Assembly (NCBI GenBank): GCA_006384855.1
Contig: VCJN01001300.1
Coordinates: 1 to 64,000 of the forward strand
DNA length: 64,000 bases
Reading direction: 5' to 3'
DNA from: Tetraselmis striata
Lineage: Eukaryota; Chlorophyta; Chlorodendrophyceae; Chlorodendrales; Chlorodendraceae
The translations under genes and the position numbers were made by a program. This document shows positions 1-58,720 of the stretch, piece after piece (position 1 is the first letter of the stretch; each line of letters starts with the position of its first letter). The notes under the pieces were generated by a model. That model ran no database searches, was not told the origin of the DNA, and saw only the letters and a list, made by a program, of their open reading frames with translations.

Positions 1-698
1 GTGCAAGCCAATAATAACTGCATACCGTAGCCACGTGAATGAATGTAACAGTTTGCCATGGGGGCTTTCCAAGCTTGCAGGAAATGGGGGTGCGTGGTAT
101 TAAGTATATAGTGTGACAACATGGACATTAGTATCATTTAATGTGTTTGAGGCGGTGCCAACCAAATGGACAGTTGCAGCTGGTGCAAATTTTTGGTGTA
201 CAGCTTGATTGGCCCAGATTATGACCTACAAATGCTAGGGCAGCAAGTACCCATGTCCAGCCTAGCCTGTTCGCTCCACAGTGCACTTCTATTCCGACAT
301 GATACACGTAGGATTAATGGGCGGGTATCGCCAAGTATCGATGATAACTAGATGTATGTGCATGCAAACTCAGCGGGAAGGTGTGCAAACAATGAATAGA
401 TGTACAGGCTCTTGTAACAGCGCGGCTCCTGCACATGTCAAACGCCCATACCACAATTCCTAGGCAGAACTGAAGAAAGTATGCATCAAGTCCGCATTTC
501 CGACTTCGGGGCACCGCGCGCGGTAGGTCATATTTTAACTCGTAAGTTTCAAAATAATTGTAAATGTACAGGTGTACATTCGCGGCGGTCATACAAGTTT
601 GTAACCTGTCGCTATTTATAGCCTGTCTGCGAATGGTCGTAATTTAAAAGGATTATACCTTTATTCGGTATTCCTTTCATCCTCAGCCACAAAGATAT

Positions 699-883
699 GA
701 TCTAAACTAGTTTATGGGGTTTCCATCCTTGACCTAACCGTTTTGTAGCTACAAGTGCTGCGCAATGGTACGGGAACTAGTAACTGTTGTTGCGCCCTTG
801 TTGGGTGCAGCACGAGTAGACATAAAAGCAGCCAGAACAGCTGAGCCTGCCATCTTCCAGTTTTCGATGCGTTCCACGCAGCG
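699..883 (+). repeat. Split direct repeat A1 of the tyrosine-recombinase retroelement
   Basis: 185 bp beginning GATCTAAACTAG and ending CCACGCAGCG. It is identical to A2 at 3598-3782 except for one base (866 versus 3765). It lies at the left edge of the element, against the empty-site sequence known from copy 2. Confidence 0.9.
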
Positions 884-1093
884 ATGTAAAAACTGTCTCG
901 TAACCAGTTGCGAGCAAGGTCACCCCAGGTTGTTCAAGACCACACCCGGCTCGCCATCCGAGTGTGATATTCTCGTCCGTACGTCCGTGCGTTACTATGT
1001 CAGATGGAGAAGAACCCGTCGTTGAGCCGACGCTAAAGTCGTTGCAAGCAGATGTGCGTGCATTGGCTACGGCTGTAGCCCAATTGACGGCTC

Positions 1094-1855
1094 GTGAGCG
1101 TGTTGTTGATGGAGAAGGGGCACATGGCTCTCGCTCCGGGCAGCGCATCGCGGGACAGCCGACAGGCAGCGGGGGAGCCGCAGAGCGCCCCCGCCGACTT
1201 GCTAGAGCTAGCCCAGAGCGGCCGTGTCGGAGCAAAATCCGTGAGTGCCGAGGATGACTACCTCGCGGTGCCAGAATTACTGCAGAGAGCAGAGTCTGGT
1301 TATGAGGCCGTTCGACCGGTCAGCCGAGTGCCTGGACTCTTTCCCTTGAGCACCGACCTAACGAACGAGTACCTCAAGCAGGATGACCGGCGTCTGCCGG
1401 CCCAGGAGGAGTACTTGTGGATGTCGTGTTTCGGGGCCCACATGGCCGCGCTTTTCGTGGCTCTCGACGAGCTACTGCCCTACGTCCCTGCCACCAACCA
1501 GGACTTCACCCCCTACCTCGCGAGAGCTCGGAACCACGCCGAGGCCATCGACAAGGCGTTTCGGTTTCGTTTGGCCTTCCTGCGGAGGCTAAATGAGATC
1601 AAGCGTGTCCACGGTGACCAAGGTGTTCTGGATGTGCTGCGAGCCCAGCATTTTCAGCCTGCTTCGGAGCATCTGGGCTCCGCGATCTTTGGGGACCTCA
1701 TGCGTGACTACGAGCGCCGTGTCTTCGAGGCGACCGTAGCCAGCAGCGCGAAAGCAACCGCTACTGCTCGAGTGGTGGCTGCAGCTGCCGGTCGCGGGCG
1801 TGGGCGAGGACGAGGTGGTGGACGTGGGCGTGGCCGCGAAGGTGAGCACGATTGA
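1094..1855 (+). CDS. Gag-like protein of the retroelement
   Basis: 253 codons. Residues 90-225 form a mostly helical, charged region, followed by a Gly/Arg-rich tail (about residues 230-250) typical of nucleic-acid-binding Gag tails. The segment around residues 200-225 (FGDLMRDYERRVFEATVASS) resembles the gag fragment at 47120-47220 (FTELLEIYKDRVYDANIASA), and the block around residues 100-165 resembles 46840-47030. Both therefore appear to be ORF1 of related elements. It stops 36 bp before the recombinase ORF. An overlapping ORF starting at 964 is an alternative 5' part; the true start is uncertain. The role (RNA or DNA packaging) is inferred from position and composition only. Confidence 0.65.
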   Translation: MSVLLMEKGHMALAPGSASRDSRQAAGEPQSAPADLLELAQSGRVGAKSVSAEDDYLAVPELLQRAESGYEAVRPVSRVPGLFPLSTDLTNEYLKQDDRRLPAQEEYLWMSCFGAHMAALFVALDELLPYVPATNQDFTPYLARARNHAEAIDKAFRFRLAFLRRLNEIKRVHGDQGVLDVLRAQHFQPASEHLGSAIFGDLMRDYERRVFEATVASSAKATATARVVAAAAGRGRGRGRGGGRGRGREGEHD

Positions 1856-1891
1856 CGGTGTGGGGCGCCTTTCGTCGGAGCTGCTGGAGCT

Positions 1892-3517
1892 TTGCGAGGC
1901 CACCTTTCGGTGACCGCCGCAAGACGTACCCTTGCAGCTCAACGGCGAGATGAGCGCCCCGTGTTAGGGCATGATCCCCCCACCTTACAGACTTCCTTTA
2001 GACCTTCCTCGGTGCGGCGCTTCTCACAGCTACAGCCGAGTGCGGCTCAACCATCCGCACACCTGCACATGGCGGCTCAACTAACCGCCTCCCGTACCAT
2101 TCCACCGCTGTGTCCGTCGGTTGTTACACTACGTGTTACAACTGGTTCGCAACGACCAAGTTTCGCGCGAGTACGTTACGCACGAGACATGCGCTACGAG
2201 CGCGAAGGGCGCGCAGGGCGGCCCTCTTACCTGAACCTAGCCCCGCAAACCCGTACCGATGCTACTGCAAACCCGTCCAGCAACTACCGGCCAACCGCCG
2301 GGAACCTAACTGCTGCTGCCGAGTACTTTGCGAACAGTAGTCGTACCGGTGGAACTCTGTCAGTAAAACGACGCACTTACGTAATTGACGAGCCCGAAGC
2401 CGTCGCTCCCTGGGCTGCTTCCTTGCGAGCTCGGCTGCAGGACGCGTTCGGCTCAGGCGAGCTGGGCCAGCGCACGCTCGACCTACTCTCCAGCTCCCTC
2501 AGCCCTCAGACACTCAAGAGCTATGCCGGCCGGCTGTCTCAGTTCGCGGAGTTCTGTCACGACTCCGAGAACATCAGCCCGCTGGAGGCGACTACTGCTA
2601 CTGTCGTTCGGTACGTTGCCTGGATCGGCGAGCGGGGGCATATCGCCGCTAAGTCACTGCAACCTTACCTGTCTGCGATCAACACGTTCTTCGAGCTGCA
2701 CAACCTCGACCCAATCGCCAAGGACAGCCTGCACTTAACTTCAGCAAGGCGTGGGCTGATGCTGCGTCAGCGCCGACTGGACGCTGCCCCTTTGCGTGTC
2801 CCTCTGCCTGCGGATGTAGCTTACCGCTTCGTCACAAAGGCCGAGCTGATTGTGTCTGCTCCCTACCCAGAGTACCACCACAACTTCCGGGCCCTCTTGG
2901 CCTCGGTTGTCAACTTTATGTTCTTTGCCAGGGGCCTTACTGGCGTGTCCTGTCGAGTGCGAGACGTGCGTGTCGACGACTACAACATCACCCTGCAAGT
3001 GTACCGCGAGAAGGGTCGCGCTGGCCGACGGGGACCCGACGACCTGCGCGTACTTCTCCTTCCGGTGTCCGAGCACCCTCGAGTGGCACGTCTCCTTCAC
3101 CACTTCATCGACAACGTCCAATCTGTCCCCCTGGCTACTGTTGACTTGGCTACATCAAACTTCTGGGCTGTCACTGCGGCCGAGCAGTCGAAACCTTGGA
3201 CTGCGGCTACAATGTCAGACTGGCTGTCTGCAGCCATCAGTCTAGTCAACGCTGCCCCCCCTGCTGGCACTTCCTGGACTTCACACAGTCTTCGCAAGGG
3301 CGCAGCTTCTGCAGCAAACGCCATCGGAGTGCCATTGTCCCACATTCGCTACCAAGGCGGTTGGGCCACTAACTCAGACGTCGTTCTGGACTACATCGAC
3401 CCCAACGTTCTTCCTTCACCTGGCGCATGGTTCTTCTTTGGACACATCGCCCCCCTCCGCCACTTCCAAGTCCAACAGGACTCCGCAGCGGTGGCCTTCC
3501 CAGTGCCTCCTTCATGA
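1892..3517 (+). CDS. Tyrosine recombinase (YR) of the retroelement
   Basis: 541 codons, uninterrupted. The catalytic C-terminal half is recognisable: Arg347 in FFARGLTGVS, a candidate Lys374 in YREKGRAGR, His465-x-x-Arg468 in HSLRKGAAS, Trp491 in GGWATNS and the nucleophile Tyr501 in VLDYIDP. An N-terminal SAM-like DNA-binding region (about residues 195-290) contains SLQPYLSAINTFF, also present in the decayed copy at about 57.75 kb. Residues 1-160 are low-complexity, so translation may start at a later Met. The enzyme is expected to integrate a circular DNA intermediate by strand exchange without target duplication, which agrees with the clean empty site in copy 2. All catalytic positions are present, so the ORF could be functional. 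Confidence 0.85.
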   Translation: MRGHLSVTAARRTLAAQRRDERPVLGHDPPTLQTSFRPSSVRRFSQLQPSAAQPSAHLHMAAQLTASRTIPPLCPSVVTLRVTTGSQRPSFARVRYARDMRYEREGRAGRPSYLNLAPQTRTDATANPSSNYRPTAGNLTAAAEYFANSSRTGGTLSVKRRTYVIDEPEAVAPWAASLRARLQDAFGSGELGQRTLDLLSSSLSPQTLKSYAGRLSQFAEFCHDSENISPLEATTATVVRYVAWIGERGHIAAKSLQPYLSAINTFFELHNLDPIAKDSLHLTSARRGLMLRQRRLDAAPLRVPLPADVAYRFVTKAELIVSAPYPEYHHNFRALLASVVNFMFFARGLTGVSCRVRDVRVDDYNITLQVYREKGRAGRRGPDDLRVLLLPVSEHPRVARLLHHFIDNVQSVPLATVDLATSNFWAVTAAEQSKPWTAATMSDWLSAAISLVNAAPPAGTSWTSHSLRKGAASAANAIGVPLSHIRYQGGWATNSDVVLDYIDPNVLPSPGAWFFFGHIAPLRHFQVQQDSAAVAFPVPPS

Positions 3518-3571
3518 CTTGGCGCTACCTCTTCTCCGTCAATCCACCGCTCTCTGCGTTCGCTCAAGACT

Positions 3572-3903
3572 GGCAAAACCAGACTCAACTTTGAAATGAT
3601 CTAAACTAGTTTATGGGGTTTCCATCCTTGACCTAACCGTTTTGTAGCTACAAGTGCTGCGCAATGGTACGGGAACTAGTAACTGTTGTTGCGCCCTTGT
3701 TGGGTGCAGCACGAGTAGACATAAAAGCAGCCAGAACAGCTGAGCCTGCCATCTTCCAGTTTTCGCTGCGTTCCACGCAGCGCCCCCCCTGACTCCGTTT
3801 TCCCTCCACGCTTTCGCTAAATACCATCCTGCCAATTTCGGCTCTTGACCGTGTAAAACAGCCTGCGCGACCTTTTTGGCAAATCCAGACTCAACTTTGA
3901 AAT
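3572..3903 (+). repeat. B1-A2-B2 right-end repeat block of the retroelement
   Basis: B1 (3572-3597) and B2 (3878-3903) share GGCAAA(A/T)CCAGACTCAACT plus TTGAAAT. A2 (3598-3782) lies directly between B1 and the 95 bp leading to B2. The A2-to-B1 boundary is exact, with no spacer, which is the junction expected of a circular intermediate. Confidence 0.85.
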
Positions 3904-10176: not shown

Positions 10177-11166
10177 CTAATCATAAGAATTGGGTTTGTA
10201 GCCAGCAGCCGGTTGGCATTTGGCAATCCGCAATCTTTCTGCTATTTCCTCCCTGCGCTGTGCCATAGCGGCGGCCCCGGAAGAGCAAGCGTTCACCCAG
10301 GATCTATTGAGGTGCACATAGTGCACCGCACCGTGTTCCTTGCAGTGCTTGCATCTAGACATTTTTTCCATGAACGCTGCAAGATCTGGCGCTGCATCCT
10401 CCATATAATCATCGCCACAATCCCACTCAGGAGTATTCCTATAATACATCCACATGTTGTGCAATATCATGGTGGAATACGTCATAAGCATCATCATGAG
10501 ATGAGAGCATTCCTGCTCTTTGTTGCAAACCTGCCATCTAGACTTCCACATCCCGAACACCTGCTCAACGAACATCCTGGTGGAGCTAAAGCAGAAGTTG
10601 AACCACTGCTGCTTGGCCGTCAAATTCCTTCCAGGGTAAGGCACCATCATGAAGTCGCACAGACAACATGCTCCGTCGCTGATGAGAAGGCTGTCGGGGC
10701 CCAGCCAGCCCTCCTTATCCTCGAACATGCCTTGGTAGAAGCTTGAGAGCTGGGTGGCTGTGCTGTCGCTCATTCTCCCAGGGCGCCCAACTTCCGCAAC
10801 GACAAACATGGCGACCACAAGAATGGAATACCAGCCCTTGTAGTTGTGGAAGTCTTCCATGTAGTGCTCGCAGTCGGGTTGCCACGGAACGTGGGTGCCG
10901 TCCACAGCGCCGCCGACATTCCGGATACTACGCCAACAGGCGAAACGCTCCTCGACCTTGCGGACTTGCTCTGGAGTGGGCTTACCAGGCATGAACTGTG
11001 GGCGCAGCACGTAGACGATGCCCTCACAGGTCTGGCGACAATCCGGCAGGCTCGCAGGCATAACGCAATTCATCGGACTGCTCGACGCGCGCACTGGCGG
11101 GCAGCAGGGAGTGGCGAGTCCGGCCGCCGTATAAACTACTACCCCCTGGTGACGGTGGCATGGCAA
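10177..11166 (-). CDS. Harbinger transposase (DDE_Tnp_4 superfamily)
   Basis: 329 codons on the minus strand. Seen motifs: GGAVDGTHVPW (first catalytic Asp, residue 89), FHNYKGWYSILVVAM (the Kg-ysi strand of the family), VGRPGRMSDS (Asp134, the hDs position), LLISDGACCL (residues 160-169, the ladsgY-like position) and FVEQVFGMWKSRW (Glu201 with the ErafG-K signature). It would cut and paste the element using the terminal repeats. The region before residue 45 does not look like the usual N-terminal helix-turn-helix, so an upstream exon may be missing or frame-shifted; another open minus-strand frame overlaps at 11024-11476. The C terminus is rich in Cys and Met. Confidence 0.85.
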   Translation of the reverse strand: MPCHRHQGVVVYTAAGLATPCCPPVRASSSPMNCVMPASLPDCRQTCEGIVYVLRPQFMPGKPTPEQVRKVEERFACWRSIRNVGGAVDGTHVPWQPDCEHYMEDFHNYKGWYSILVVAMFVVAEVGRPGRMSDSTATQLSSFYQGMFEDKEGWLGPDSLLISDGACCLCDFMMVPYPGRNLTAKQQWFNFCFSSTRMFVEQVFGMWKSRWQVCNKEQECSHLMMMLMTYSTMILHNMWMYYRNTPEWDCGDDYMEDAAPDLAAFMEKMSRCKHCKEHGAVHYVHLNRSWVNACSSGAAAMAQRREEIAERLRIAKCQPAAGYKPNSYD

Positions 11167-28909: not shown

Positions 28910-30276
28910 CTATGCAGCGGCGGCCCGCAGCGCAGCACCTCGCTGCTCGTGCCACTCGGCCGCATCCAGGATCTGCTGGGTGTTGTCGAACAGCAGCGCG
29001 CAGGCGGAGGACATGCGGAGGTGGTTCCAGTGGTCCTTCCTGAACGGAGACTCGCACTCTGTGGACGCCCCCTCCACGCCCAGCATGAAGAAGCCGATGG
29101 CGGCCAGCGCGGCCGGGGTTCCCCAGCCCCACGAGGCCACGAACAGCACGGGCATGAGGAGGAGGTAGAGCAGCAGGGAGGTGCGCAGGTGCGAGACATA
29201 GACGAGCGGCAGCGGCGTGGACTTGATGCGCTCCATCATGCCGATCAACGACACCAGCAAATCCACCTGCCGCTCCATTGCGTCCCGCACGCTGGAGCGG
29301 TAAATTGCCGCCTCGATTGGCTCGCCCGGCCCCAATGCCACGAGGAGGCTTGTCCGGATGGCGCTGCTGGCAAACAACGGCATGTGTTTGGCGGCTTCCA
29401 TCATCCGCACTTCGCCCGCACTCAGCACACCGCTCAGCTCATTGGCGTCCATTGCAGTGCCGTGTAACAGTTGCTTGCAGCCAACCACAAATGCCAGTGT
29501 CCTGTGCGGCGTATCGAGTCGGGGGACATTGAGGGGGAAGGGGGGCATTCAGGGTGAAGGCACATACGGTGCCGCTCGATATCAACCCAGCTATGTGCTT
29601 TCAGTGAGATGCCATACCCTTTTGCAAACGCGCTGCAAGGTAAGTTCGCAAGGTAAGCCTCAGTCGGTTTTGGAAGGGCCTCAGGCGCAGGCTGCGATGT
29701 CGGGTCGCACCAGCGGATTATATCATCGCGCAGCGCCATGTCGTGCGCGCAATGCACGCAGGCCTGCTCCGCCAGCAGCCGCCCCGCCTCCACCAGCTTC
29801 CCCCAGGCGGTGCGAGAGTCCCAGAAGCGGATGGCCGCCCGATTGAGGCGGAACACGAGCAGGAAGCCCACGACGGTCAGGACCAGCGAATACCCCGCGG
29901 AGTACGGGGCGGTGCTGTCGTTGAGCGCCGCGCGCTCGGCGCTCGAAAGCGCTAGTTTGTATACGAGTGTCACCAAGACCGAGAAGCCGACCACCACGAG
30001 CCAGGGCACCGCGTACGTCCGCACCGCGCGCGGTTCCCACACAAACAACGTCTTCATGAAGCGGTATGGCTGATATCTTCCCACGTCTCGCCATCCTGGT
30101 GGCCCCCAAGCCGAATCACGTAACGTGGCGGCTGCCAGAAGGCGCTGCGCGAGTGTCGGCGGCGAAGCATGGCTCATCGGAAGTCCGCATGTCGGCACTC
30201 CGGCAGCCGCCGCCGCCGCCTTGTCACCTTGACTGTCGCGAAGCAGCCCTGCCTGAAACCCCCCCGCAGTCGCCAT
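28910..30276 (-). CDS. Bestrophin-family anion channel
   Basis: Two exons, 30276-29711 and 29501-28910, joined through a split Trp codon; 1158 nt, 385 residues. Family features: a conserved block FRLNRAAIRFWDSRTAWGKL, a C-terminal helix pair around LPLVYVSHLRTSLLLYLLLM and PVLFVASWGWGTPAALAAIG, then GVEGASTECESPF and DNTQQIL. Four hydrophobic stretches occur (about residues 88-105, 125-145, 280-300, 305-325). Algal and plant members conduct chloride or bicarbonate across the thylakoid or plastid membrane (VCCN1 and Chlamydomonas BST proteins); the Ser/Ala-rich first 45 residues could be a targeting peptide. Substrate is inferred, not seen. The intron is only 209 bp and has no C run, unlike its neighbours. 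Confidence 0.87.
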
Positions 30277-43559: not shown

Positions 43560-45600
43560 AAGGCAGCCGAGATGCCCCGCCGGCCGCATGAGTTGGGGAT
43601 GTTGGGCTCACGGATAGTCGGCGGCGCTACGGTGATGGCCTTACCCGCCGACTAGCTACGCTTCATGGACGGCGAGCTGACTCGTTTCCCGACTAGCGGA
43701 GCGTGGGAAGAAGGCCACTGTCCACGGTAAGTCTCCCGGCTCTTCCTTGTCCCCAAGCCCAGTGTCTACAAGCGGAGGCTCATCACCGACCTCTGACCCA
43801 TGAACCGGTCGTTCTGTTGCGGAGCGAGACCTGAGCTTCGGGACGCTCACTTGACTTCGCGCCATCTGGCACGACTTAGCGACTATATGTTGTCCATGGA
43901 CATGCATGACCGCAGGCTTCTACGCCGCCGGTATTGCCCCCGAGGACCGCGACTATATACTTTAACGTCGACTACCGGGGCAAGCTCTACCGCCGATTGG
44001 CATGGCTCCCCATGAGGTGGAGCCTGAGCACATGCTACTCTACTCCTTCACAGCCGCGTTAAACCGACACTTGCGCCGCCCCGACTTCACGGTGACCCCT
44101 CGCGGCGTTGGTCGCGGTCCAAGCTCAGCATGGCGGGACGGCGCCATACCCTACGTTGGCACTTCCGCGGGTGTCGGATGCTTCCCTACATGAACGACTT
44201 CTTGTTCTTCGCGTCGACGGGTCAGCACAATAAGCCTACGCCGTACGAGACCGCATCACCTCTATACTGGCTAAGCTTGGCCTTAGTCGCCACCCGGACA
44301 AGGCGCAACGGTAGGAACTTGTGCAACGGCTCGGGCACAACGGCATGGAGCTTACTACCATGACGGGATGATTCGGGCGCTAGAGTGCAAGCCCGAGTCG
44401 CTCGAGTGCCGCGTCGGTGCTCAGCCGTAAACACCCGGCGAAATGAGACAAGCGATGGCTGCATATACGCAAGCTAGCGTCGCTTGTGGGGCGATCCCAC
44501 TTCCACCCCCTCGTCATAAAGCCAGCATGGTAGGACCTCCGCGAGCTGCACGAAGTGCTCCGCACAAAGGACTCGCATAGCGGACGCGTAAATATGACGC
44601 GCCACCTCTTGTCAGACCTTGAGTGGTGTGCCGCGGTCCCTCCGCACAACAACAGTCGCTCCATCGACAAGCCGCTCGAGACTGCCTACATGCACGTCGA
44701 AAGCTCCGGCTACGGGTGGCGGGGTGGGACACCGTCCTCAACAACGAGCGAGACTACCGAGGCGCGCACATCACCTACGCATCACCTACAAGGAGCTCCG
44801 TGGTGTCCAGTAATAAGCCGTGCTCACCTTCCGCACCGAGCAACTACGAGTTCGACATGTATTTCTCCACGAGGACAACATGGGGTTGGTCTACAACCTG
44901 GCTCGCCAATCTCACCTCGTGTTCGCCCCTTCTTACGCTAAAACTACGGAAGTTATGGTCCATCCTCGACAACAACGACATCTCCGTTCGCGCGCGCTAT
45001 ATCATGACCACGGCGAACATCTCGGCGGACCGACTCAATCGCGACATCGACTACGACGACATGGCGTTTAACCTTCGCCACCTCGATCACCTTGACAACA
45101 TATAGGGTTGTCACACCATCGACCGCTTCGCTGTCATCATTGGGAACGCGTGCCTATCTCAATGCAACCCCCGCTGGCGCGATCCGTGCAGTGATGCCAT
45201 CGATTGCTTGCGCCTCTCCGACGGCGCGTCGCGACGCGAGCACACCCCCCTTTGGGGCCTCATCGACGATCTCGTCATCAAGCCCCAAACCTCCGGCGCG
45301 GCAGCCACCGTCATCGCGCCCTACAAGCCGGACATGAGGTGGCACTAGCGCCTCTCAGAGAAGGTATCCGAGGTAGTTGTCTTCCCGCCCTCGCTCCCGG
45401 ACCTCTCCGCGCCCAGCGACCTCGTCGTGCGCGAGGGGGTCGGTCCTCCCAAGTGATCCGTGGCCGCCTTCCGGCTCCTTCTCCGGGCCCGGTGCCCGGC
45501 CCGGTCTTCATGACCGCCCCTCGTCTGCCCCTCGGGCCGGGCGTCGTGCCCCGGCTCGGTCGAGCTCGGCCAACCACAAAGCCCCCCCTGCTTATTTGAA
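43560..45600 (+). pseudogene. Decayed DIRS-type reverse transcriptase and RNase H fragment
   Basis: Several frames must be read in turn. Around 43740-44230: LFLVPKPSVYKRRLI, then (about 43890-44030) a domain with IAPEDRDY-like and YRGKLYRL-like blocks, and at 44181-44210 LPYMNDFLFF. The last is the RT active-site box, but the first of the paired Asp is Asn. 44640-45100 carries the RNase H and connection region: AAVPPHNNSRSIDKP, ESSGYGW, AHITY, LHEDNMGLVYNLA, LRKLWSILDNNDI and RARYIMTTANISADRLNRDI. A further block to about 45470 contains ASPTARRDAS-like and AATVIAPYKPD sequences normally downstream of RNase H in DIRS elements. Many frameshifts and the altered catalytic box make it inactive. 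Confidence 0.75.
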
Positions 45601-46395: not shown

Positions 46396-47485
46396 TAACC
46401 CACCGGGCCCAAGATGGCCGACGCGAGCAAGCCGACGGTTGTCGGAGGCATCGCGACGGCGGCTATTGCGTATGACTCCATCCAGGCAGCGCGTCGTGAG
46501 GCGGAAGACACAAGACTGAAGCAACTCATCCGGGAGCATCTCTCTAGGTTCTTCACCACTCAAGGGACTCCTATGCCGCCGGCTGCCGCCGGTGAAGAGG
46601 ACGCCATTCCGGGCGGGAACGAGTCCCGCGCCGGTGGCCTGGACCGGAACATCCGTGCGCCCTTCGTCCCTTCGAGTGAACCACATTACCGTGATTGAAA
46701 AACCGCCCTCGCTAATGCTTTGCCCCGTTTCGAGACCAGGTTGCCTCCCGACCGTTTGCGACGCCCCGGGCTCTTCGCCATCGCCCTCGACCGCGTGCTC
46801 GAGTACCTGCGTGATAACCCTCGTCTTCAGCCGGCAGCGGATAAGTACTACAACGCCGCGTGCTACGGGGCTTTCATCGCCGGCTCGGTTGTCGAGCTGC
46901 GTAAGCTATTGGCGGCAGCATGCGTTACCGACGGGATCACACCGGCCTTCGTGCAGCGGCTCGAGGGCATCGTTCACATCACGGAAGCCATCGACGACTC
47001 ACGGTCATCGGTTCCGCCTCGCCTACCTCCGCAAGTAATTGGGTATGCGGATGTACCACGGCGACACCCTCGCTCTCGACGTCGTACGGAAGCGCTACCT
47101 CCGCCTGGTGCTGAGAACACGGGGTCGCCCGAGTTCACCGAGCTGCTAGAGATCTACAAGGACCGCGTCTACGACGCCAACATCGCTAGCGCCGCGAAAA
47201 CCAGTGCCAATCTGCGCTTCCATCGGCGGCGCCTTCCGGCGCAACGACCGCGACCGGGACAGCGGCGGCGGCAGCGGCAAAAACTTCAAAACTACGTGCG
47301 CGCCCGGGGCGCGAGGCGGTGGCGCGCCAAGCCATATTGGCAAAGGACGTCACCAAGGACTCTGGTGATGAGGACAAGGCGAAAAGTGAGGCCCCTACTG
47401 CCTCGGGCAAATACGTTGTATGGCATATATACAACACGAGTAAACAACACGCGGGTCGCGTTGGCATCATTAACGGATTTTAATT
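46396..47485 (+). pseudogene. Decayed gag-like ORF of a DIRS-like element
   Basis: Starts MADASKPTVVGGIATAAIAY and continues in a second frame with FETRLPPDRLRRPGLFAIAL, ADKYYNAACYGAFIAGSVVE, LEGIVHITEAIDDS and FTELLEIYKDRVYDANIASA. The last two blocks resemble the gag-like ORF at 1094-1855. There is a stop at 46696 and a frame change near 47035. The 3' part of the element (RT onward) is missing here. Confidence 0.6.
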
Positions 47486-48248
47486 CCATATCACTAATAC
47501 TACAATGAAAGCGTCGCCCTCTAACACTGTGAGATTCAGATGTGACATACGGGTGACGAAGCACTACTACTAGCGACTATTATTTATCCGTGAAGGCTGC
47601 TGCTGGTGGCGGCACGTCCATCCAGTTACGTGCGAGTACATCCGGCGTTATTGCCGGCGGGCGATAAATCCTTTTTGTCATCATTCTGGTAGTCGTACTA
47701 GCCCGGTAAAATGTTACATGGCACTGACGTATAAGGTACAAGGTTGTCCGTGTAGTACCGGGTAGTACGCGATATATTTATTGAGCCGGTACCGGGTATC
47801 TAGTACCCGGTACCCGGTACCCGGGCACGATGACGAGTGGTCCTGTGGATAACTACGCCTATTAGTACATGGGAGCGCAAATCGCAGCCGTTGTATTTGG
47901 TAACAGTGGGGAATTTTGTGTACATTACAGCTAGTACTGCTGAACGGGCCTGCCAGCCGTCCGATCAAAGGTCATCAGATGGGCGGTTTGGCTGCCATGT
48001 TTTGCCAAAGAGTGCTCACGTTACATAAATATTCGCGAGGGGGAGGGCGGGGGCAGGCAGCGGTTTACCGAAGAATGATTGAATTACAATATTCGCGACA
48101 GCTGCCATCGGGGAATGTGGCCCGGGGGGGGGGGGGGGGGGGGGGGGGAGGCGGGCGGGCGTGGTCCCCCCGCCGCCCCCTCCCCCCCCCCCCCCCCCCC
48201 CGCCGCTCCCGCCGGGGGAGTGAGGGGAGGGGGGTAAGGGGGCGGGGG
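47486..48248. other. Low-complexity intergenic stretch
   Basis: Contains a short repeat of GGTACCC around 47790-47823 and paired G (48125-48148) and C (48187-48200) runs that could pair with one another. No gene recognised. Confidence 0.6.
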
Positions 48249-49156: not shown

Positions 49157-50405
49157 GTGTGAATATTATATCGGCCGTAGACGATCAGGTCTGGCAGCAC
49201 CGCCCGTGCTTGTGAATAAGCGACAATGGATCTAGTCACCCGCTAGTCTGTGCACCGCCAGTGCACTCCGCAAGCCTCGCCTCCATCCGCGTCGGAACCG
49301 GTAGTAAGTGTTGTTGTGTGCGCACATCGTGACAACATTACACGGTGGCAATTGCAATTAGCGGTGGATAATGTGAAGGCGTTTTCGAAATCGACAGAGA
49401 ATGAGGCGGTGCTGGCGGAGTGCATTGGCGGTGCATAGAATAGCGTGTTGCTGGGGTTTTGGCTGCATCGGACGCCGTATTCCCACCCATCCGGCACGGA
49501 ATGTCCGTTTTTCACACATTTGTGTGTTAATATAGTGTGAATATTACGCGTCTTTTACGCCGGGTGGATGGGCATCCGGCGTCCGATGCACCCCAATTAT
49601 TTGCAGCACGCTACTCTACGCACCCCCAACGCACTCCGCAAGCCTCGCCTCCATCCGCGTCGGAACCGGTAGTAAGTGTTGCTGTGTGCGCACATCGTGA
49701 CAACATTACACGGTGGCAATTGCAATTAGCGGTGGATAATGTGAAGGCGTTTTCGAAATCGACAGAGAATGAGGCGGTGCTGGCGGAGTGCATTGGCGGT
49801 GCATAGAATAGCGTGTTGCTGGGGTCTTGGCTGCATCGGACACCGTATTCCCACCCATCCGGCACGGAATCTCCGGTTTTCACACATTTGTGTGTTAATA
49901 TAGTGTGAATATTACGCGTCTTTTACGCCGGGTGGATGGGCATCCGGCGTCCGATGCACCCCAATTATTTGCAGCACGCTACTCTACGCACCCCCAACGC
50001 ACTCCGCAAACCTCGCCTCCATCCGCGTCGGAACCGGTAGTAAGTGTTGTTGTGTGCGCACATCGTGACAACATTACACGGTGGCAATTGCAATTAGCGG
50101 TGGATAATGTGAAGGCGTTTTCGAAATCGACAGAGAATGAGGCGGTGCTGGCGGAGTGCATTGGCGGTGCATAGAATAGCGTGTTGCTGGGGTTTTGGCT
50201 GCATCGGACGCCGTATTCCCACCCATCCGGCACGGAATGTCCGTTTTTCACACATTTGCGTGTGAATATATCTATAGTGTGAATATTACGTACGCGTCTT
50301 TTACGCTGGGTGGATGGGCATCCGGCGTCCGATGCACCCCGAATCTCACCAACACGCTACTCTACGCACCCCCAACGCACCCCGCCAGCCCCGCCTCTTT
50401 CCGCG
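49157..50405. repeat. Tandem array of 368-bp foldback units with long terminal inverted repeats
   Basis: Unit starts (GTGTGAATATTA) lie at 49157, 49535, 49903 and 50277; the last is partial. Units 2 and 3 are almost identical. Within each unit the left arm (CGGCGTCCGATGCA, CACGCTACTCTACGCA, CGCACTCCGC) recurs as inverse complement in the right arm (TGCATCGGACGCCG, TGCATAGAATAGCGTG, GCGGAGTGCA), giving imperfect inverted repeats of about 130 bp around a centre near ACACGGTGGCAATTGCAATT. The 89- and 90-codon ORFs on both strands are by-products of the repeat. Confidence 0.88.
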
Positions 50406-57054: not shown

Positions 57055-57639
57055 GACCCTAAATCACATATGGCCGAGGCGCCTCTATGGTCGACATGGC
57101 CGAATGATGGGGTGCTCCGTGCCGACCCCATGGAGCTGCATGCGTTTCGAGGGCACGCCTTCCAAGCAACACTACACTGGAGTCGTCGGCATGAGCGGGA
57201 CTCCCTCACCGCGGATCCTCATGCGCGAGCCGTCATCATCCTCCCCCTACCCTCGCCGGGATCAACCCCACCGCCTCTACTCGGTTATTCAACATCGCGA
57301 GTCCAAACTACTTTCTCCCTCTTTCTGGCGCGGCCCCCTCCCGACCTGCCGCACTGACCCTCTTTTTCTATCGGCCGCGCAGCCGCCTCTCGCGGACAGC
57401 CAGACGAGCCAGGTACTCACGCGACGCTCGCTACAAGGTCAGCGGCTACAGTGCCATGCCGTCCTAAGCATCGGCTTGGTGCTACACATGGTTTTGTTGT
57501 CACCGCCCGGCGAGCACCACCCTCGGTAGCAGCGGCGAACCCAACAACGGCCTATGGAGCGTTCCGGCGCGTCTACTACTACGAAGACACTAACCACCTA
57601 CTTCATCGCCAATACTGACGCGAAGCCCCCCCCCCCCCC

Positions 57640-58720
57640 TTGAGCGAGCTCATGCGAGGCAGCATCGAGGCACTCTACGGCACCGAGTACACATGCGTCC
57701 GATACCTCGTCTTGATTGCGGAGTGCGGCACCATCGGCGCCGGCTCTCTGCAATTATACCGCCTCTCGGCCAAATCAACACCTTTCTGCGTCATACCGGT
57801 CGAGATGACGCCCCGGCCACCGCCGGCCTAGCCATCGGCGACATGCAGCGCGCGCTTCAAATCCGTCAGCTCAAGACTAGCGAGGAGTTGCGGCGCGCCC
57901 CCCTTGCACGCGACGTCATCACGACATCCTCAACGACCTTGCTACCCTTCCCATGACCACCCCCGGCTATGACACTACCATCCTCCGCGAGGGCGCCGCA
58001 ATACGTGTGTTCAACACCCATGTTTTACTCTCGTGGTGAGTCCAACGTCTCCTGCCGACTCCGCGACAATTACTCACCCACAACATCACCCTCTTTGTCA
58101 ACCGCGAGAAGGGGCCGGGGACATCGCAAGCATCGAGACGGGTTTAAGCCCCTACTCCAAGTCCCTGCCACCGCCGTGCCCGCGTGGAGGGCCCTTCTCC
58201 GACGCCTCATCGCCTACCGCGACGAGGCGTTCCGGGCAGCCCCCACCGCCAAGCAACCATATCGATTCTGGGCGCTCCCCGGCGACAAGGCTACCCCCCC
58301 CCCCCCCCCCCCCCCCCATTACGTAGTTACGTAGTACTCCTACTCCACCCTCGGCGATTGGGTCAAGCGGGCCGTCGGCCGCATCTATCGAGCCCCCCGC
58401 CCCCCCTTGCCGAAGGCTTCGTGTGAACCTCGTACTCCGACCTTAGGAAAGGGCGCGGCGTTTGACGCAAACGCGGCATGCGTGCCCCTGGGCAAAATCT
58501 GCCACTGGGGTGGTTGGGCCCGCAGTATTCAACGACTACATCGACCCAACTACGCTTCCTACCCGCACCGCCGCGCTTCCGTTCGGTTGGCTCTCCCCCG
58601 GCTCTCGCCCTTGTGGTCCTTCGCAGCCTTATTGACAGCGCCCCCGCTCTGTCGGACGCCCCCCCCTCCCTCTACAATCCTGCCGACCGAGGTGGCTACC
58701 CTTCCCTGCCTACCTCCCTT
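57640..58720 (+). pseudogene. Decayed DIRS-type tyrosine recombinase
   Basis: Frames must be switched several times. Seen blocks: RGSIEALYGTEYTCVRYL (57655-57710), then SLQ-YL-AIN-like sequence at 57745-57790, REKGRGHRKHRDGFKP (about 58104-58155), FRAAPTAKQPYRFWAL and, near 58450-58550, KGAAFDANAACVPLGKICHW with GGWARS. The HxxR-GAAS box, the W box and the region before the terminal repeat follow the order of the intact recombinase at 1892-3517. The sequence after GGWARS has lost the Tyr context by frameshift. A C run at 58293-58317 interrupts it. Upstream sequence to 57055 contains no clear gag or RT. Confidence 0.65.

Follow-up and report, generated by a model that had tools for sequence, protein, structure and literature searches.

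In a 64,000-nucleotide stretch of the Tetraselmis striata genome (the window: contig VCJN01001300.1, positions 1 to 64,000), we found a compact element at positions 698 to 3902 that carries a gag-like gene and a tyrosine recombinase (YR) among split direct repeats, lacks a reverse transcriptase (RT), and belongs to an RT-less gag-YR family that is real, large and under selection. We consider it probable that this is a non-autonomous yet protein-coding retroelement of the PAT kind in the DIRS order, which would receive its RT in trans and make its recombinase as a Gag-YR fusion by stop-codon readthrough. All its features lie on the plus strand, in the order A1, gag-like frame, YR, B1-A2-B2. Repeat comparison matched A1 (698 to 883) with A2 (3597 to 3782) over 190 nt at 99%, and B1 (3571 to 3596) with B2 (3877 to 3902, the right terminus) over 27 nt at 96%, bearing out the split direct repeats of a preliminary description of this DNA. 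A spacer of 94 nt (3783 to 3876) separates A2 from B2; one T (698, or 3903 at the opposite end) is the shared crossover base; B1 begins with TGGCAAA and has its last bases at the crossover, and the B1/A2 boundary is the sequence expected for a circle junction. The preliminary description also placed only 36 bp between the two frames, with RT and RNase H wholly absent, and this is exact: the gag stop occupies 1853 to 1855 and the YR frame begins at 1892.

The loss of RT is a property of the whole family. Searching the genome with the element yielded 44 DNA matches from the best 40 of 3,148 candidates, and we aligned 45 fetched copies of at least 2.8 kb each, some of which are not independent (L040 and L041 have both flanks in common, L013 and L050 nearly so). 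RT is missing in all 45, and the gap between gag stop and YR is 36 nt in every one, so that the RT and RNase H characteristic of PAT elements have no counterpart here. This common structure rules out a lone deletion in the window copy, along with the possibility, raised in the preliminary description as fatal to its proposal, that all other copies contain RT and RNase H; the search for the same 36-bp gap that it advised reveals an established family instead. Counting patterns over the whole genome with up to three mismatches, we obtained 1,497 gag ends, 1,535 YR starts and 1,276 B1/A2 junctions, while reversed patterns, used as controls, gave 0 each. The family thus comprises about 1,500 copies, which at 3.2 kb each would make up about 2% of the 224-Mb assembly. 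Spacings were analysed for the first 100 listed places of each pattern: a listed YR start lies no more than 12 kb from 29 of the 100 gag ends (26 at 53 to 57 bp) and a listed junction no more than 12 kb from 45 of them (43 at 1,658 to 1,825 bp); 19 listed YR starts can be paired with a listed junction, 1,480 to 1,736 bp away. Three other long spacings were seen among these places (11,685, 11,778 and 10,376 bp). Two sets of candidate RT carriers were rejected: C225, where gag end and YR start lie 3,322 bp apart, holds two RT-less elements end to end, and four YR matches absent from the DNA match list proved RT-less when fetched. An older relative, 79 to 84% identical, hosts the insertion of a young copy and is likewise without RT.

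Both genes are preserved at the level of the family. The YR frame (1892 to 3517) encodes 541 amino acids, with the catalytic residues R347 (codon at 2930), H465 (3284), R468 (3293) and Y501 (3392) present as first described, in keeping with the tyrosine recombinase of PAT elements. Pfam matched it to Phage_int_SAM_1 at 1.9e-8 and to Phage_integrase at 0.0047, short of the model cut-off, and a YR profile matched Cre over the segment from HxxR to the tyrosine (E 2.5e-5); a search of the genome with PF00589 gave 7 matches, none from the gag-YR family. From the family ATG at 997, gag spans 284 codons in 31 of 45 copies. In the window copy, which the preliminary description took to have an open gag, this frame is frameshifted and shuts after 86 codons (997 to 1257), and the open frame at 1094 to 1855 holds only the downstream part of gag, in the family frame and with an RG/RGG-rich tail at its end. 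YR is open at exactly 541 codons in 31 of 45 copies and at between 538 and 570 codons in 5 more; copies of non-standard length number 14 of 45 for gag and 14 of 45 for YR. Among open copies, a choice that biases the result somewhat, the ratio of nonsynonymous to synonymous rates (dN/dS) was 0.153 for gag and 0.198 for YR, the latter being the check on the recombinase that had been proposed. An omega-like ratio was 0.14 for gag and 0.22 for YR at variants found in at least four copies, compared with 0.63 and 0.60 at singletons. Judged by these ratios, gag and YR are under purifying selection, so that the earlier claim that both are kept holds for the family; as the selection is seen on shared variants, it argues that the encoded proteins are used. 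The gag assignment itself refers to a conserved frame with an RGG-rich tail that has no Pfam gag match and is similar only to a remnant near 46.7 kb of the window; the predicted structural model (pLDDT 46) is too poor for use. That gag remnant (46400 to 47500) is 30% identical to the element's gag over 156 amino acids (E 2.7e-12; hhalign E 5.3e-9), and a degenerate YR remnant of the same type lies at 57200 to 58600 (26% over 269 amino acids, E 2e-9).

We found the two A repeats to be homogenised within copies. Where both repeats are present (40 copies), the divergence of A1 from A2 is 1.1% within a copy and 4.1% between copies, a within-copy value reached by 0 of 10,000 shuffles; 7 of the 40 show zero differences. 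Of 478 comparisons at 12 sites that mark subfamilies, 472 find A1 and A2 in agreement, and 51 of the 81 within-copy differences involve a base unique to one repeat. By position, homogenisation is strong between 700 and 839 (ratio 0.14 to 0.28, 0 of 2,000 shuffles). This is the pattern expected if an RNA lacked the start of A1 and that part were restored from A2, and the likeness of A1 and A2 within copies thus fits retro-replication rather than plain movement of a DNA circle. Two observations sit less easily with it: 19 of the 81 within-copy differences recur in another copy, which strict homogenisation does not predict, and positions 840 to 882 show no homogenisation (0.74 to 1.0), the variation there being too low to decide.

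The termini behave as crossover sites without target duplication. In the 38 copies with both ends found, the left end starts with TG and the right end reads AAA followed by T (21 copies) or C (17 copies). Upon comparing a nested copy (L009) with an uninterrupted homologue, a natural empty site, we found that the flank lengths agree when one T is counted once, with no target duplication; integration of this kind is characteristic of PAT elements. At L059, a 2.9-kb unit is repeated in tandem with a single A between units, which is what joining via the B/A junction would give, although homologous recombination could also make it. Two copies of very unlike age (L012 and L045) have the same left flank and right flanks 2 bp apart, a pattern to be expected if the two had inserted independently into a repeated target, or if the locus had been duplicated.

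A signal that the preliminary description overlooked lies between gag and YR. In the 45-copy alignment, the two genes occupy one frame, parted by one UGA: 44 of 45 copies have UGA as the gag stop, and CGGTGT comes next in 43 of 45 (UGA-CGG at 1853 to 1858 in the window), and the 12-codon linker that follows (1856 to 1891), in frame with both genes, is free of stops in 44 of 45 copies, the first methionine past it standing at residue index 71 in 39 of 45. A type II readthrough motif, as defined in PMC3542737, combines UGA-CGG or UGA-CUA and an extended stem-loop that lies about 8 nt further downstream. The element has both components, the UGA-CGG being followed by an extended RNA stem-loop (1862 to 1960) that begins 7 nt past the UGA; the segment 1856 to 1965 folds at -57.3 kcal/mol (z -4.02), a stability that none of 200 dinucleotide shuffles reached. 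With mononucleotide shuffles it reaches z -3.74, compared with a minimum of -3.03 over 84 windows spread along the element, and the older relative retains the UGA motif together with a similar fold (-58.9, z -3.32). Among 28 distinct sequences, 67 of 1,232 cells of the stem pairs hold one-sided changes that still pair. For variants found in at least three copies between the stop and the first methionine, synonymous (S) and nonsynonymous (N) changes number S 11 and N 8 in the gag-YR frame; the two alternative frames give S 1, N 17 and S 7, N 12. As UGA-CGG with a strong stem-loop amounts to a type II readthrough signal, the recombinase is probably produced fused to Gag.

A family with the same repeat layout offers a candidate source of RT. 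A motif pattern and follow-up searches uncovered three kinds of DIRS-type elements in the same genome. One, L053 (1045 to 4396), is Kangaroo-like: a PAT element whose YR is inverted and whose RT is of the DIRS type. The second, a complete PAT element, combines a CCHC gag, RT-RNase H-Dam and a YR in forward orientation; it was found at L056 (1018 to 6862) and L057 (724 to 6579), which are 96.8% identical over 5,860 bp, and its domains score 3.6e-16 for RVT_1, 4e-6 for RNase H and 1.2e-6 for Dam (L057). The third, which the preliminary description overlooked, is a related family with a frame of 849 codons, first met as a remnant in the window. Of its best 150 of 1,269 candidates, 44 carry an open frame whose length is exactly 849 codons. 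The end of this frame is a Dam-like domain, with a weak Pfam match (0.0042, L060) and an alignment score of 192 to the Dam domain of L057, compared with at most 62 in 1,000 shuffles. In the family's element on C2236 (L060, L061), YR follows the methyltransferase domain and is succeeded by B1, A2 and B2, with a spacer of about 91 bp, and A1 (181 bp, L061 1045 to 1225) matches A2 at 99.4%. Its YR is 39% identical to that of the gag-YR element over 361 amino acids (E 4.7e-73); both families have the crossover core and junction AAATGRTC and B repeats of the form TGGCAAA, 16 nt, AAAT. In each of six loci, 242 bp separate the YR motif from the junction of the 849-codon family, whose B1/A2 junctions (266, against 1,276 in the gag-YR family) are about one fifth as numerous. 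The two other kinds were rejected as parents: neither has repeat similarity to the element, and their YR alignment scores (65 and 56 for L053 and L056/L057) are far below the 650 of L060.

By these likenesses, the 849-codon family is a likely RT donor candidate. Weighing against the assignment, its 849-codon frame has been read only at the methyltransferase tail, in addition to its YR; its gag is not significantly similar to the element's gag (hhalign E 0.086); and its A repeat has no similarity to the element's beyond the first bases (z 2.0). The remnant in the window (43800 to 45400) is degenerate and shows, by eye, pieces of RT and RNase H and a methyltransferase-like piece (45106 to 45345), the last having been the starting point for finding the abundant 849-codon family. 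When remnant pieces were aligned to L057, an L008 piece fell on the RNase H region, with a score that 1 of 1,000 shuffles equalled, and a window piece fell on the RT region, with a score that 0 of 1,000 equalled, while three other window pieces gave no alignment (139, 622 and 848 of 1,000 shuffles as good); against L053, none of the RT and RNase H pieces was convincing (23 to 618 of 1,000). A genome search with PF00078 did not separate DIRS-type RT, the best 150 rows all scoring 134 to 140 bits, many of them with a frame of 1,539 or 1,541 codons. In the 849-codon family, pairs of B1/A2 junctions about 300 bp apart (C158: 107033/107331; C555: 96469/96771) suggest a duplicated A-spacer-B module.

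We infer an RNA intermediate, with RT supplied in trans, as follows. Transcription would start inside A1, downstream of the promoter-like element ATAAAA (822 to 827), a putative TATA box in a repeat whose homogenisation is clear to about 839, and the RNA would end in B2. It would encode Gag, as well as a Gag-YR fusion made when the gag UGA is read through, and in this fusion the recombinase would be carried in particles. RT and RNase H would come in trans, most likely from the 849-codon family. The missing 5' portion of A would be regained from the internal B1-A2 copy during the making of a circle with a B/A junction. Recombination by YR would then take place between the junction core (AAA-T-GATC) and a target whose last base is T or C, and would duplicate no target sequence. 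The preliminary description had offered two routes, its own integration and packaging with a borrowed RT, or a DNA circle; self-supplied integration and a borrowed RT are both probable, whereas a pure DNA circle is not supported. A larger proposal, that this is a self-sustaining RT-less YR lineage, which packages its own recombinase as a readthrough Gag-YR fusion, borrows its RT and outnumbers its donor by about 5:1 in junctions, we put forward tentatively, as a conjecture that could readily go either way.

The alternatives differ in which of these steps they dispense with. Movement as DNA, in which YR would excise a circle at B2/A1 and reinsert it with no RNA step, as in Cryptons, and copies would be gained through replication timing, draws on the many copies with an intact YR, on termini that act like YR crossover sites, on a tandem array on C348 with a single B/A junction between units and on the end-to-end pair on C225. 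Such movement should carry A1/A2 differences along, yet nearly all marker comparisons agree, and purely DNA-circle movement leaves the match of A1 and A2 within copies unexplained; it would also leave the internal B1-A2 module and gag without a reason, and we know of no split-direct-repeat counterpart that is free of a need for RT. We regard it as improbable. The A1/A2 match might instead arise by gene conversion after insertion, the family being an old deletion derivative moved by the full machinery of its parent, with its own YR and gag unused. Tandem and nested copies do show recombination between copies, and gag and YR are each off their standard length in nearly a third of the copies; conversion would, however, need to act at 40 scattered loci and on A repeats only, and purifying selection on shared variants of both genes would not last if the proteins were unused, which makes this account very unlikely.

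A further question is whether Gag and YR are separate proteins, YR being translated from a non-AUG start or by reinitiation and the UGA serving as an ordinary stop. The support for readthrough is comparative, and several features weaken it: the 12-codon linker by itself shows no N/S constraint (S 2, N 2 among shared variants), a window starting at 1121 folds to a slightly lower energy (-58.2 kcal/mol), and the stem-loop has only 1 two-sided change, with 23 broken cells of 1,232. Third-position variation in the linker is higher (0.060 against 0.016), resting mostly on two sites. Separate proteins would leave unaccounted for the single frame, the fixed linker length, the UGA-CGG, a stem-loop more stable than all its dinucleotide shuffles and the in-frame constraint upstream of the first methionine. 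We therefore regard separate proteins as unlikely, if a serious contender, and prefer the Gag-YR fusion.

RT-less elements are usually seen as short passengers, poor in genes. TR-GAG and similar plant non-autonomous long terminal repeat (LTR) elements have kept Gag, lost RT and depend on a partner; these are LTR elements without a YR, whereas the gag-YR element keeps its integration enzyme too. Cryptons, DNA transposons that are not known to carry gag, are like the element in having a YR and no RT. According to the portion of PMC3212892 available to us, they have no long direct repeats, unlike the element with its 190-nt A repeats. PAT elements are described, in excerpts of PMC4157794 and PMC3266345, as combining A1-B1-A2-B2 repeats with a methyltransferase domain and a YR; Chlamydomonas relatives are reported to have PAT-like DIRS elements (PMC8226300, in excerpt). 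The element resembles Pat1, TOC and Kangaroo in its A1-ORFs-B1-A2-B2 layout (PMC4157794, in the same excerpt), YR, putative gag and lack of target duplication, and differs in having no RT, RNase H or methyltransferase (a Pfam search of its two frames found no Dam match) and in joining gag to YR by a readthrough-type stop; unlike in Kangaroo-type PAT elements, its YR is forward, on the same strand as gag. The 849-codon family is like it in repeat order and sizes, crossover core, B start and YR, and unlike it in the methyltransferase-ended frame before YR and in a gag with no significant similarity. Ngaro elements have the same A1-[ORFs]-B1A2B2 repeats and keep RT and RNase H; some from Cafeteria have lost ORF1 and not RT (PMC8547959, in excerpt). 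The nearest relative found for the element, initially placed as Ngaro/PAT, carries a DIRS-type methyltransferase domain, which fits PAT better than Ngaro.

We found no description of an RT-less gag-YR element in the open-access literature searched, subscription papers being largely outside that scope. Surveys of YR elements keyed on RT would be expected to miss such families. Selection on packaging-like and integration genes despite the loss of RT points to a division of the steps of YR retrotransposition among partners, which opens each step to a test of its own, and the A1/A2 pattern provides sequence evidence on the restoration of split direct repeats. Should the UGA-CGG signal prove functional, Gag would be linked to the integration enzyme by readthrough in this order.

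Elsewhere in the window, an Rfam scan gave 0 matches, minus-strand frames resemble a DDE_Tnp_4 transposase (10177 to 11166, Pfam 7.6e-18) and Bestrophin (29434 to 30276, Pfam 9.5e-13), and a unit of about 368 bp is present in three head-to-tail copies at 49241 to 50405.

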